From Thermaurantimonas aggregans (GTDB lineage Bacteria; Bacteroidota; Bacteroidia; Flavobacteriales; Schleiferiaceae), in assembly GCF_003851885.1 (NCBI RefSeq), contig NZ_BHZE01000027.1, positions 1 through 34,785 of the forward strand: 34,785 bases of DNA. Reading direction: 5' to 3'. Positions within the stretch are counted from its first letter, which is position 1. Every line of letters begins with the position of its first letter. The translations under genes were made by a program, and so were the position numbers. The notes under the pieces are model-generated. The model made no database searches, was not told the origin of the DNA, and worked only from the letters and a program-made list of their open reading frames with translations. Below are positions 6,228-30,093 of this stretch, one piece after another.

Positions 6228-7717
6228 TCTTTTATAAGGCCTTCGGATTGCAAAATTTGTTTGATAGATTCGATTTCTTGGAGTTTGCGGTAAATTTTTG
6301 GTTCGGCTGCTCGTTCTTGGCAGGGGTCGAGCCGACAGCGTTCGCAGGTAACATTTACTTTGTGTGTTGGTATGTTGGGATCGTTAATCCAGCGAATTTT
6401 CTTTCGAGTATCGTTATTGACTTCAATTCCGATGCTAATAGAGGTTCGACTAAAGGGTTTTGAAAGAGTTTCTCTTGCCCAGGAGATTACGATATACTCA
6501 AGGCCCGAGTCGATGTAGTGCGACTTTTGAACCCCGAGAGCGTGTTTTTTCTCTTGGTTTAGCTCGTTAAAAATCTTAATGCTCATCCAGCGTCTGCAGT
6601 AGTGTTCGCCACTTTCATTACCGTGTGGCTGGTGTTTATTGCCCAGATGCAGCTCTTTTGACAGATGAAAGCTCTGGCGATGACCGTCTTGATTAAATCG
6701 AAGGAAGAACATCTTTTGAAGTCCGAATCGCCCGGGCAAAATGTTTGTGAGTCTGTACATGAGGGTTTCGGGCGATGTATTCCATTTGCGAAGCATCGAT
6801 TCCAGAAATTCACCCGGAAATTCCATCGACTCCAACATGTACGACACATCGCTGCAAAATGCTTGCAGTGGTAAAAGGAGAGCCCCTGCAAAATATGACG
6901 CTTGAAAATTAATCAGCGCTTGATCAAAGGTTTTTGTGGAGTTCCAATCTTTGTAGTAATACACCCGCTCATGAAGAGGAAGGTTTAACCAGTGGTAACC
7001 GATCTCCTTGGCGAGAATAAACGCTTTTTGGTACGGGTGAAGGCCCGGATGAATGGAGAGTTCGTTGCGATCGGGATAATAGAGAGCGCGCAGCTGCTGA
7101 AGTACGATTGTTTCAGTAGTGGTGTTTAGTTCGGTCACGAGAGTACCAAACTTTTTTGTGAGGATGTCTTTTAGAAATTCCCAGTTGGCAGCAGCATCAA
7201 GTGGAATCTGAAAGTGGCGTGCGCACAGCTCTGTTTCTTTTTCGAGTTGTGGGAAGTAGTTGTCGTGAAGCTCCTGATAAGAGCGCAAGGCTGCCGAGAG
7301 GAACTTTTCTTTATTAAGGTCGTAATTGCGGGCTATATCGATGTAGGTCGATATAAAAGCGCTGATTTTAGCAGGCGATTGTGTGATGATTTCGACGAAT
7401 TTTTGGTAATCAATTCCGAAGTGTTCAAAAGGGAGCTCATCGAGAATGCCCGAATTAAAAATATCAACTAAAGGCGCAAGTGATCGGGGCAGTCGAGTGC
7501 TGACGAGTTGGTCATAAGTAGTGCCCAGGGCTTCGGCCAGGTCAGCTATTTTATCGGTTTTAGGGTATTTTTTACCTTTTTCTATCTCGTTTATGTACGA
7601 TACGGAAAGTCCACTTTTATCAGCTACTTCTTGTAAAGAGAGGTTTTGTTCTGTGCGAAGATGGCGCACTTTAAGGCCAAAAATCAGTCGTATTTTATCT
7701 TCTGTAAGCTTGTACAT
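6224..7717 (-). CDS. XRE-family regulator of the ScfR/RamB type, likely controlling the glyoxylate shunt
   Basis: A 497-residue DNA-binding regulator with three parts. Residues about 10-70 form a Cro/C1-type helix-turn-helix (LSLQEVADKSGLSVSYINEIEKG). The middle resembles an ImmA/IrrE (M78) domain with NFQASYFAGALLLP at 270-283, but the HExxH metal site is replaced by K237-E-I-G-Y241, so it is probably a ligand-sensing pseudopeptidase. The C-terminus has a conserved cysteine cluster (C458, C461, C466) followed by QERAAEP, as in short-chain fatty acyl regulators related to RamB, which controls acetate metabolism in actinobacteria. It is divergent from aceBA, which supports that role here. The -7 box TACTTTTG ends 4 nt before its ATG, so the mRNA may be leaderless. 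Confidence 0.85.
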   Translation of the reverse strand: MYKLTEDKIRLIFGLKVRHLRTEQNLSLQEVADKSGLSVSYINEIEKGKKYPKTDKIADLAEALGTTYDQLVSTRLPRSLAPLVDIFNSGILDELPFEHFGIDYQKFVEIITQSPAKISAFISTYIDIARNYDLNKEKFLSAALRSYQELHDNYFPQLEKETELCARHFQIPLDAAANWEFLKDILTKKFGTLVTELNTTTETIVLQQLRALYYPDRNELSIHPGLHPYQKAFILAKEIGYHWLNLPLHERVYYYKDWNSTKTFDQALINFQASYFAGALLLPLQAFCSDVSYMLESMEFPGEFLESMLRKWNTSPETLMYRLTNILPGRFGLQKMFFLRFNQDGHRQSFHLSKELHLGNKHQPHGNESGEHYCRRWMSIKIFNELNQEKKHALGVQKSHYIDSGLEYIVISWARETLSKPFSRTSISIGIEVNNDTRKKIRWINDPNIPTHKVNVTCERCRLDPCQERAAEPKIYRKLQEIESIKQILQSEGLIKE

Positions 7718-26709: not shown

Positions 26710-28383
26710 ATGAAAAGGATAACATATGTATTCATCTTTCAGTTTTTGCTCTTCTGGAGCTACGCTCAGAAGTGTGTAGACCCAGAGGTAATTTCTGTTG
26801 ATAAAATCAGTTTTGTCTTAAATGAGTTGGCATCAGAGCGGTTTCAGGGGCGTTATCCCGGTTCACAAGGCGATTCGATCGCCGTGGCTTTCATCGTTGA
26901 TCAACTCAAAGAGATTGGACTGATTCCAATGGGTGAAGCCGGTAACTATACCCAGCCCTTTACTGTAAAACTTCAAGTTAAAATTTCAGACAACACCTTA
27001 ATTAAATCGAGAAAAGCAGTTGTGAAACCCAGTGAACAGGTGTATCCAACGCGATTTTCAGACAACGGAAAAGTGAAAGGTCGGTTGATTGCCCCTGTAT
27101 TTACCCTGAAAAACAGTGCTCTTACTGTAGAGGAACCACGAAAAGTGCGCAAGAAAATAGCAGTCGTCGATTTATACGGCCTAAAGGAGTTATATCAAAG
27201 TCAAGGGCTTGATTTTAAAACATTTAAAATTCAGGATTTGATTCAACTGCTTAAAGACTACAAAGTGAAGGGGCTTTTGCTTACGAGTACAAAAGTTTCA
27301 GGTGTTCCAGTTCCTGAGCGATTTTTTGAAACCCAAGAGCCAGTCGGTTTACCTGTTTGGTATGTATCAAAAGACTTGATCGAGGGCTTACAGAAGCTAA
27401 AACGCATAAAAGTTATCACTCAAATATATGAAAATCAAGTTACTACATATAATATCGCAGGTTATTGGGAAAATGGTGCACCATATACCTTCATAATAGG
27501 TGCACATTATGATCACTTGGGAATGGGCGATAAGAATTCGACGTATCGAGGTGAGCCGCAAATACATCCTGGCGCTGATGACAATGCCTCAGGTGTAGCA
27601 GGTGCTATGGCTTTAGCCAACTACATCGCCGAATTTGGCAATAGAAATTTCAATTACCTCTTTTTGTTTTTTGGTGCTGAAGAACAAGGACTTCTGGGTT
27701 CTAAGCATTGGGTCAGCAACCCTACGTATCCGATGGAAAAGATCACCGCCATGCTCAACTTTGACATGATTGGCCGGCTGGGTGATGATAGAAATTTAAA
27801 AATCAGCGGCACAGGTACAATGCCAGAGTGGGAAAATGCTTTTAGGCAACTTCCTTGTTATAACATTACTTACCAATTGTCGCGAGGTGGTAGAGGGCCA
27901 TCTGACCATACTTCTTTCTACAATCAAAACATTCCCGTTCTTCACTTTTTTACAGGACTGCACCCCGACTATCACAAGCCCTCTGACATTCCAGCGCGCA
28001 TCAATATATTTGGAATTCGCGACGTTGTCGCCCTCAGTGCTAGTTTGATTGAATATTTGGATCAACTCCCACAACCGCTCACTTTCACTCCCACTGACGA
28101 CCAGCAAGAGAGTCGTCCGGTGCGCTTGTCTGTTACAATGGGCATAATGCCTGGATATAATTCCGACAATAAAGGCCTAGAAGTAGAAGGTGTAACGAAA
28201 GGAAAACCAGCAGATAAAGCCGGTATAATAAAAGGAGATTACATTGTGAAAATTGGCAATATGCCTATCCGGAACATTCGTGATTATATGGAAGCCCTCT
28301 CTCAATACGAAAAAGGAGATACGGCTCCCGTTCAGATACTTCGGGCAGAAAAAATTTTGGAAGTGAATGTTTTATTTGAGTAA
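26710..28383 (+). CDS. Secreted M28-family metallopeptidase with C-terminal PDZ domain
   Basis: A 557-residue exported aminopeptidase-like enzyme. A signal peptide (MKRITYVFIFQFLLFWSYAQ) precedes a PA-like insert (about residues 120-240). The M28 catalytic core has two-zinc ligands in GAHYDHLG (H266), GADDNASG (D290/D291), AEEQG (E324/E325), NFDMIGR (D352) and DYHKPSD (H422). A PDZ domain follows from about residue 470 (GLEVEGVTKGKPADKAGIIKGDYIVKI). The frame extends to TTG 26683, but ATG 26710 puts the signal peptide at the N-terminus. It probably trims peptides in the periplasm or outside the cell. It is divergent from the CrtA-like gene with only 26 nt between starts. Confidence 0.92.
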   Translation: MKRITYVFIFQFLLFWSYAQKCVDPEVISVDKISFVLNELASERFQGRYPGSQGDSIAVAFIVDQLKEIGLIPMGEAGNYTQPFTVKLQVKISDNTLIKSRKAVVKPSEQVYPTRFSDNGKVKGRLIAPVFTLKNSALTVEEPRKVRKKIAVVDLYGLKELYQSQGLDFKTFKIQDLIQLLKDYKVKGLLLTSTKVSGVPVPERFFETQEPVGLPVWYVSKDLIEGLQKLKRIKVITQIYENQVTTYNIAGYWENGAPYTFIIGAHYDHLGMGDKNSTYRGEPQIHPGADDNASGVAGAMALANYIAEFGNRNFNYLFLFFGAEEQGLLGSKHWVSNPTYPMEKITAMLNFDMIGRLGDDRNLKISGTGTMPEWENAFRQLPCYNITYQLSRGGRGPSDHTSFYNQNIPVLHFFTGLHPDYHKPSDIPARINIFGIRDVVALSASLIEYLDQLPQPLTFTPTDDQQESRPVRLSVTMGIMPGYNSDNKGLEVEGVTKGKPADKAGIIKGDYIVKIGNMPIRNIRDYMEALSQYEKGDTAPVQILRAEKILEVNVLFE

Positions 28384-28388
28384 ATTTG
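28356..28388 (+). promoter_or_regulatory. Full -33/-7 promoter for the small Cys/Lys-rich protein gene
   Basis: TTTG at 28356-28359 and TAAATTTG at 28381-28388 are separated by 21 nt, close to the Bacteroidota consensus spacing. The -7 box begins at the TAA stop codon of the M28 peptidase gene. ATG 28415 is about 26 nt downstream. Confidence 0.6.
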
Positions 28389-28414
28389 TTCACAATAAAT
28401 AATTTTTACTGAAA

Positions 28415-28591
28415 ATGAGAAAAATCGCTCTGTTCTTTGCTATCACTGCCCTTCCTATAATGATGATGGCCACTGAGCCTGAAAAAAAATCTGAGAAAGA
28501 GGGATGTAAAACTGAGAAAGCTGAAAAGAAAAGCTGCGGCTCTGAAAAAAGTGAAGCAAAAGGTTGCTGCTCAAGCAAAAAACCTTCTTAA
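28415..28591 (+). CDS. Small secreted Cys/Lys-rich repeat protein
   Basis: A 58-residue protein I do not recognise. Residues 1-20 form a signal peptide (MRKIALFFAITALPIMMMAT). The mature part is almost entirely Lys, Glu, Ser and Cys and consists of three decapeptide units: KSEKEGCKTE, KAEKKSCGSE and KSEAKGCCSS. Cysteines fall at 31, 41 and 51, exactly ten apart, plus C52. There is no lipobox. Possible roles are metal binding or thiol buffering in the periplasm, but these are guesses from composition. It has its own promoter and a strong terminator, so it is a self-contained transcription unit between the peptidase gene and nqrA. Confidence 0.7.
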   Translation: MRKIALFFAITALPIMMMATEPEKKSEKEGCKTEKAEKKSCGSEKSEAKGCCSSKKPS

Positions 28592-28597
28592 AGAATT

Positions 28598-28624
28598 AAA
28601 CCGGCCCACGGGCCGGTTTTTTTT
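28598..28624 (+). terminator. Rho-independent terminator after the small Cys/Lys-rich gene
   Basis: CCGGCCC (28601-28607) pairs with GGGCCGG (28610-28616), flanked by AAA and TTT which extend the stem, followed by a run of eight T residues. A strong, canonical terminator. Confidence 0.88.
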
Positions 28625-28743: not shown

Positions 28744-30093
28744 ATGAATATCAGAATAAAAAAAGGTGCTGATATAAAGATAACAGGCCAGCCAAAGCAG
28801 GAGGTGTTGGGAGACTTGAAGGCCGATGTTTATGCCATTAAGCCAGACGATTTTAAGTTTCTTCATCCAAAACTTTCGGTAAAAGAAGGGGATACCGTAA
28901 AGGCAGGCCAACCAATCATCTACAGCAAAGATGACCACAGAATCACAATACCAAGCCCAGTGAGTGGTCAGGTTGTTGAGATTGTAAGAGGGGAAAAGCG
29001 AAAGTTGCTGGCAGTAAAGATCCTTGCTGATAAAGAAATTGACTTTTTAGATTTTGGAAAGCTCAATCCGGAGAATGCCTCCAGAGAGCAAATCATTGAA
29101 AAACTATTGGCATCAGGCCTGTGGACACTCGTTCGTCAACGTCCGTATGGCTGCATCGCGCATCCAGAAGACAAGCCGAAAGCCATCTTTATATCGTGTG
29201 TAGATACTGCTCCTATTTCAGCTGATCCACTTTTTATAATTAAGGACAAGAAAAACTTTTTGAAAACAGGATTAGAAGCGGTTAAAAAGCTTACTGACGG
29301 AAAAGTACACCTTACTTTTTCGGCTTCAAATCCCAATCCCGAAATTTTCTCAGGTCTGATCTCTGGAAATATTGAAACCCACACTATATCTGGCCCACAT
29401 CCGGCTGGCAATGTTGGGGTGCACATTCATTACATCGATCCCATTAATCGCGGTGAGCGCGTATGGTATCTCTACCCGCAAGACCTTGCGATGATTGGGG
29501 AACTCTTAGAAACAGGCCGATATAATGCCTCAAAGATTGTAGCAGTTACTGGGCCGATGGTATCAAACCCGGGCTACTACCACATCATCTCCGGTGCTTC
29601 GCTTAAAGGCTTAAAAGTATTGCTCAAAGAGGGGCATAGTCGAGTAATTTCGGGTAACATTCTTACCGGAGTGCGTCAAGATGAGGACGGATTCCTTGGC
29701 TTTTACGATTACACCATCTCTGTACTTGAGGAAAATCACGAACCCGAATTCCTAGGCTGGCTCCTACCTGGTATAGGAAAGTTCACCATACACAGAGCAT
29801 TGCTCAATTGGTTTCAGAATGGCAAAGCGCTGCCCTACAATACAAAGATGAATGGGGAGGAACGCCCGTTTGTTGTAACTGGTGAATACGAACAAGTTTT
29901 CCCGTTTGATATTTACCCCGTACAATTGCTTAAGGCCATCATGGTAAACGATATCGAAAAAATGGAGCAGCTCGGCCTGTACGAAGTTGTTGAAGAAGAC
30001 TTTGCCCTCTGTGAAGTTGTTTGTACATCAAAAATTCCCGTCCAAGAAACCGTTTACAAAGGTTTGGAACTCTTAAAATCAGAAGTGGGTTAG
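28744..30093 (+). CDS. nqrA: Na+-translocating NADH:quinone reductase subunit A
   Basis: The 449-residue cytoplasmic subunit of the Nqr complex, which oxidises NADH, reduces quinone and pumps sodium. It starts with IRIKKGADIKITGQP. It contains the lipoyl/barrel-like segment VKEGDTVKAGQPI...ITIPSPVSGQVVEIVRGEKR, the RPYGCIA loop, AGNVGVHIHYIDPINRGERVWY, and GPMVSNPGYYHIISGASL. First gene of a complete nqrABCDEF operon and preceded by its own -7 box. NqrA has no membrane segment or covalent cofactor. Confidence 0.95.
   Translation: MNIRIKKGADIKITGQPKQEVLGDLKADVYAIKPDDFKFLHPKLSVKEGDTVKAGQPIIYSKDDHRITIPSPVSGQVVEIVRGEKRKLLAVKILADKEIDFLDFGKLNPENASREQIIEKLLASGLWTLVRQRPYGCIAHPEDKPKAIFISCVDTAPISADPLFIIKDKKNFLKTGLEAVKKLTDGKVHLTFSASNPNPEIFSGLISGNIETHTISGPHPAGNVGVHIHYIDPINRGERVWYLYPQDLAMIGELLETGRYNASKIVAVTGPMVSNPGYYHIISGASLKGLKVLLKEGHSRVISGNILTGVRQDEDGFLGFYDYTISVLEENHEPEFLGWLLPGIGKFTIHRALLNWFQNGKALPYNTKMNGEERPFVVTGEYEQVFPFDIYPVQLLKAIMVNDIEKMEQLGLYEVVEEDFALCEVVCTSKIPVQETVYKGLELLKSEVG

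Follow-up and report, generated by a model that had tools for sequence, protein, structure and literature searches.

Bacterial metallothioneins and other thiolate metal buffers are cysteine-rich proteins that are probably disordered until bound. A second group of metal-binding chains, the bufferins (Buf1, Buf2) and the Buf-EGKCG peptides or oxazolins, are described in the cited source as copper-binding, MNIO-modified RiPPs (PMC12452194). The gene considered here lies on contig NZ_BHZE01000027.1 of Thermaurantimonas aggregans, positions 1–34,785 of which were analyzed and are called the window; its genome is G000. An open reading frame at 28415..28591 on the forward strand begins with ATG and encodes 58 amino acids, with the sequence that a sequence-only reading of this DNA had given. 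It is a real gene, as its homologs and dN/dS ratios show.

The protein has cysteines at residues 31, 41, 51, and 52. By eye, residues 1–19 (28415..28471, forward strand) are a likely signal peptide, with a basic start, a hydrophobic run, and an alanine at the proposed cleavage site, and the product is probably exported. Ala19 is invariant in 33 of 33 rows of A5, an alignment in which the window protein is one row. The –3 position of the proposed site is threonine in the homologs from genomes G014 and G001 and methionine, which is not ideal, in the window protein. AlphaFold2 with A5 predicted a disordered mature chain (residues 20–58; 28472..28588, forward strand) and no fold, with a mean pLDDT of 53.3 and a pTM of 0.13. 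Within this chain, residues 33–56 (28511..28582, forward strand) form the family core, TEK...EKKSC...GCC.SKK. Cys41 (codon 28535..28537) and Cys51-Cys52 (codons 28565..28570) are invariant in A5, and the window protein also has the EKK and K..K context and the Lys/Glu-rich composition of the other rows, whose chains typically run to about 40–50 residues; the Cys31 codon (28505..28507), on the same forward strand, is not conserved across the wider family.

As previously proposed, the gene is self-contained, with a Bacteroidota-type promoter match ahead of the reading frame and a strong terminator behind it. A pattern scan placed the promoter match, TTG-N21-TAAATTTG of the Bacteroidota –33/–7 type, at 28357..28388 on the forward strand, where the –7 box shares bases with the stop codon (28381–28383) of the gene for an M28 peptidase. 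Its spacer of 21 is longer than the spacer of 19 in the consensus Bacteroidota promoter. The motif alone is weak evidence, because with both strands counted the window contains a single match to the pattern with spacers of 17–21 versus ~4 matches expected. Of 38 other members tested (the five others from the window's own bacterial family and 33 of the 42 flavobacterial ones), 28 have a TAnnTTTG box within the 110–130 bases before the gene, among them all five of the window's own family; the chance rate, estimated from shuffled window sequence, is ~7% per upstream stretch and is higher in AT-rich gaps. The intrinsic terminator (28598..28624, forward strand) consists of a hairpin of 9 pairs, 6 of them G-C, at 28598–28619 followed by a T run, and by eye a hairpin resembling it is found 3′ of the gene in G001 and G014. 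The small gene stands alone between the gene for the M28 peptidase, which has a PDZ domain (26710..28383, forward strand; Pfam, with the start from the ORF listing), and nqrA (28744..30093, forward strand; NCBIfam, above cut-off), both of which are outside the unit.

The closest homologs are 74% (G014) and 60% (G001) identical to the window protein. The window gene is under purifying selection, with dN/dS of ~0.09 against G014 and ~0.14 against G001, the synonymous sites being near saturation; for six flavobacterial pairs, values ranged from about 0.04 to 0.32. Among 88 genomes of the window's family, the three-row profile A1 matched strongly in 3 (G000, G001, and G014) and, up to E 1, in 21 in all, with G045 among the weak matches.

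The decapeptide repeat of the window protein is modest. Composition-preserving shuffles of the mature chain equalled the period-10 score in 0.17% of cases; when the best of 12 periods was taken, the share was 1.3%, and 8.8% of mature-chain shuffles had three equally spaced cysteines. Because the three 30-base units of DNA have only 13–18 of 30 bases in common, the repeat is not a fresh tandem copy. The ten-residue spacing noted earlier holds for the window protein (31, 41, 51) and for the G014 homolog (31, 41, 51, 52). It does not extend to the wider family and fails as an exact family trait, since the G001 cysteines are residues 43, 54, and 55, and most flavobacterial members share the C...CC core alone and differ from the window protein in cysteine arrangement outside it. 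One relative (L259 in G942) carries an additional EKKSC unit, which shows that the number of units can differ among relatives.

The sequence-only reading had assigned the protein to no recognized family, and scans of Pfam and NCBIfam indeed left it without any match above cut-off; profile searches, by contrast, found relatives. Profiles grown from the window protein reached an unannotated family with the consensus KTEK-SC..EEKKSC..EKKGGCC.SKK, and the window protein most likely belongs to this flavobacterial family, which has the core EKKSC...GCC.SKK. Profile A3, whose six rows came solely from the window's own bacterial family, gave matches in 24 of 395 genomes at the level of the order (E 0.01) and in 14 of 395 at the level of the class. 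Ten new A3 loci were read, of which G242 and G250 are similar to the window protein along their whole length and G693 and G623 are looser look-alikes. With G242, G250, the window protein, and G014 as rows, profile A4 matched 95 of 199 genomes of the genus of G242 (g21, which we take to be Flavobacterium) at E 1e-3, weak matches counted. Profile A5 at E 1e-5 matched just 2 of 214 genomes of G242's family, namely G242 itself and one partial match. Among the 212 other genera sampled in that family, this partial match was the only one, so connecting forms between the two groups are lacking. Weak profile matches that consisted, where read, of a signal peptide and a Lys/Glu stretch were dropped. Four stretches of viral contigs fit a sequence pattern and none coded for a relative, a plasmid search with one flavobacterial member gave no match, and no solved structure was found with profile A4 up to E 1. 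Among the open-licence literature matches listed, none described a KTEK-EKKSC-GCC.SKK family, which is weak evidence of absence. At one locus (L230), two copies of the small gene, at 6559–6744 and 7241–7438, lie in a single sulfur cluster, the first having one front cysteine fewer.

Common descent of the window protein and the large flavobacterial family is likely, although not proven, on the basis of sequence comparisons. First, with an HMM built on the mature chains of 42 flavobacterial members and 1000 shuffles of each chain as controls, the mature chains of the window protein (13.8 bits) and of its G002 counterpart (16.3 bits) outscored all of their own shuffles (0/1000 as high in each case). 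Second, the full-length A3 matches in G242 (E 1.1e-9) and G250 (2.3e-8) stand apart from the next match in the order search, a 456-residue frame at 1.6e-6. Third, TEK, EKK, C, and CC line up across the rows of A5. These results argue against convergence, in which the window protein would be one of many short Lys/Glu/Cys-rich chains exported by Bacteroidota, related just to the proteins of G001 and G014 and perhaps of G002 and G045, and serving a separate role, for example as a general periplasmic thiol buffer. We consider convergence unlikely but a possibility of some weight. Look-alikes do exist (g5, G693, G623, and L161), and for G693 and G623, respectively, 104 and 53 of 1000 shuffles score as high with the HMM through composition alone; the corresponding figure for g5 is 3 of 1000. 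The close homologs score poorly with the same HMM (G014, 3.5 bits, 13/1000 shuffles as high; G001, 5.2 bits, 6/1000), and the two G045 chains give –1.7 bits (G045a, 23/1000) and 4.8 bits (G045b, 2/1000). In a background of 3,986 ORFs, the best non-family scores were 15.9 (L161), which is above the 13.8 of the window protein, and 8.4, and G045b and G001 score among unrelated ORFs. The near absence of members from other flavobacterial genera and the lack of a sulfur or efflux context for the window gene also favor convergence.

Several of the look-alikes are of interest in themselves. The g5 type, from another genus of the window's family, is an exported protein of 112–113 residues with three EKKSCC units whose gene adjoins one for an OmpA-like protein; it occurs at L021 (1306–1644) and at L015, L016, L019, and L071–L075, and is similar in style, with homology unproven. 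A scan of genome contigs with this protein returned five loci, all of the g5 type. Around 1477–1782 of L161 (G407), a 102-residue cysteine-rich exported protein with NPADCNPANCKPADCK repeats, the source of the 15.9-bit score, is a possible distant relative. The G693 protein (L160, 1366–1692), exported and 106 residues long, has His/Cys-rich repeats (HKCTG, KKCCSDKK), is encoded near a sigma-factor-like gene, and may bind metal.

The gene context of the relatives, which combines sulfur and efflux genes, is the best functional clue. We read 42 loci, comprising 40 A4 matches, mostly the best-scoring, together with G242 and G250, and thus not a random draw. Same-strand neighbors included genes for metallo-beta-lactamase (MBL)-rhodanese (24 loci), TolC-type (21), membrane-fusion (20), RND permease (19), kelch-like (19), thioredoxin (19), DUF6132 (16), Crp-type (16), TauE (14), YgaP-TM-like (14), and HMA (7) proteins, with sulfide:quinone-reductase-like (3) and CydA (3) genes and a YeeE pair (1) less frequent. 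The domain matches for kelch, YgaP, and DoxX did not reach cut-off. The RND permease resembles AcrB rather than a CusA-type metal pump, although no subfamily model scored above its own cut-off. A strictly sulfur gene, mostly MBL-rhodanese, was present on the same strand in 28 of the 42 loci, rising to 29 when thioredoxin, HMA, and YgaP-like genes were added to the set, and tripartite RND efflux genes were present in 21. With broader sets, 38 loci had sulfur or efflux genes, 12 had both, and 4 (L237, L248, L253, and L256) had neither, all as raw rates; by estimate, a gene present in 1–3 copies per 3-Mb genome would lie by chance in a given stretch of 14 kb about 0.5–1.5% of the time. The position of the small gene varies: it follows MBL-rhodanese, thioredoxin, or DUF6132 genes, lies between kelch-like and TolC-type genes, or precedes CydA or YeeE. 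An unannotated cysteine-containing protein of 107–121 residues is encoded among the same-strand neighbors in 18 of the 42 loci (for example, L229 5165–5485 and L263 6675–7037), and NCBIfam gave no match for the two such proteins scanned.

In the window, Pfam, NCBIfam, and the ORF listing revealed no sulfur, metal, or efflux gene adjoining the small gene. This difference from the 38 flavobacterial loci weakens the membership of the window protein in the family but does not bar it, because the context is frequent rather than universal. The window genome does carry a pair of MBL-rhodanese genes on another contig (C26), surrounded by ORFs judged by eye to be TauE-like, rhodanese-like, and sulfur-transporter-like. 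No small cysteine-protein gene was found in this C26 cluster, so the functional link of the window gene is one of family and co-occurrence, not of adjacency. MBL-rhodanese genes are also present in G014, G002, and G045, three of the four other gene-carrying genomes searched; none was found in G001, which is 70% complete.

A metal or thiol role for the window protein is plausible. A cationic exported thiol chain, with relatives encoded beside genes for persulfide oxidation, HMA metallochaperone-like proteins, and envelope-spanning efflux, suggests a periplasmic buffer or carrier of Cu(I) or sulfane sulfur. The peptide would be exported to the periplasm and remain disordered there, and its thiols, set among lysines, would bind either a soft metal ion, for example Cu(I), or sulfane sulfur as persulfide. 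In relatives, it would act as a buffer or carrier beside persulfide-oxidizing enzymes and tripartite efflux pumps, and the window protein may keep this role although its own gene stands alone. We give roughly even chances to the combined proposal that the window protein is an exported, natively disordered thiol peptide of the flavobacterial family that holds a soft metal or sulfane sulfur in the periplasm. A narrower proposal is doubtful and offered tentatively: that the exported, disordered thiol peptides common in one flavobacterial genus form an undescribed family, are unmodified, and carry sulfane sulfur or copper-sulfur adducts in the periplasm between persulfide-oxidizing enzymes and an RND efflux pump, with the window protein as a free-standing member.

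A role in service of the adjacent M28 peptidase or the NQR complex is very improbable. The gene does follow the M28 gene in G001, which retains both neighbors, M28 and nqrA, and also in G002 and in two G045 contigs, where a cysteine protein of 65 or 79 residues is encoded between the M28 gene and a gpsA-like gene. Nevertheless, the small gene has its own promoter match and terminator, and its G014 homolog is located elsewhere in a genome in which M28 and nqrA genes are both present. Moreover, the gpsA-like gene comes immediately after the M28 gene at 27 of 30 loci and at 18 of another 20, and a small gene is found upstream of nqrA in just 2 of 30 nqrA loci, those of G000 and G001. The names gpsA, rlmN, and UspA are presumptive.

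We regard it as very improbable that the small gene of the window encodes a copper-binding RiPP like the bufferins or oxazolins, with cysteines altered by an MNIO (DUF692) enzyme. A Sec-type export signal followed by a Cys-Lys-rich chain is also seen in bufferin and oxazolin precursors, as far as the source describes them (PMC12452194). In G014, an MNIO gene lies ~8 kb from the small gene and adjoins a gene for an EGKCG-like peptide, and in G242 a DoxX-like gene, below the Pfam cut-off, adjoins the small gene. The window genome, which is 99.93% complete, has no PF05114 match, and the bufferin reading fails because this enzyme is missing; the MNIO/bufferin identity was rejected for this genome. 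It also finds no support in the 42 flavobacterial neighborhoods, in which no MNIO-like ORF was seen. The G014 locus itself (L009, 16579–18624) encodes a 124-residue exported KCGE/EGKCGE-repeat protein, a sigma-factor-like protein, and the MNIO protein (PF05114), and resembles an oxazolin or bufferin cluster.

Least probable of all is a secreted bacteriocin-like peptide, suggested for some relatives by weak YxzE-like (PF25184) matches in 6 of 33 A5 members (best E 7.3e-6), since the best relative reaches 27.3 bits versus a cut-off of 40, the window protein has no YxzE match, and neither the larger ORFs of the window nor the recurrent neighbors of the 42 loci, as read, included a gene for immunity or for dedicated export. 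The matches that A5 members gave with the Pfam families Conotoxin (9/33), ANGEL2_N (7/33), and YxzE were below cut-off in 10 of 10 members with printed cut-offs and were rejected; the best Conotoxin match (E 6.1e-5) came from outside these 10 members.

Short exported cysteine proteins escape curated libraries, and one family of them, whose loci consistently feature sulfur and efflux genes, was apparently overlooked. Should its members prove to bind sulfane sulfur or copper in the periplasm, they would constitute a simple, unmodified counterpart to the bufferins, and through them persulfide detoxification would be linked to RND efflux in flavobacteria. Among known systems, the YxzE-like putative bacteriocins are similar in length to the small cysteine proteins, and HYC_CC_PP (NF047658), like the window protein, is a small cysteine-rich protein, which the window protein matches faintly (12.5 bits versus a cut-off of 28, and thus rejected as an identity). 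Like bacterial metallothioneins, for which Pfam gave no match to the window protein up to E 1, the window protein is cysteine-rich and probably disordered until bound, but it has fewer cysteines and is predicted to be exported. Unlike the bufferins and oxazolins, it has no EGKCG motif, its genome has no MNIO gene, and its thiols are assumed to be unmodified; like the bufferins and oxazolins described in the cited source, it is short, predicted to be exported, and cysteine-containing, and periplasmic metal buffering would be a property shared with them (PMC12452194).
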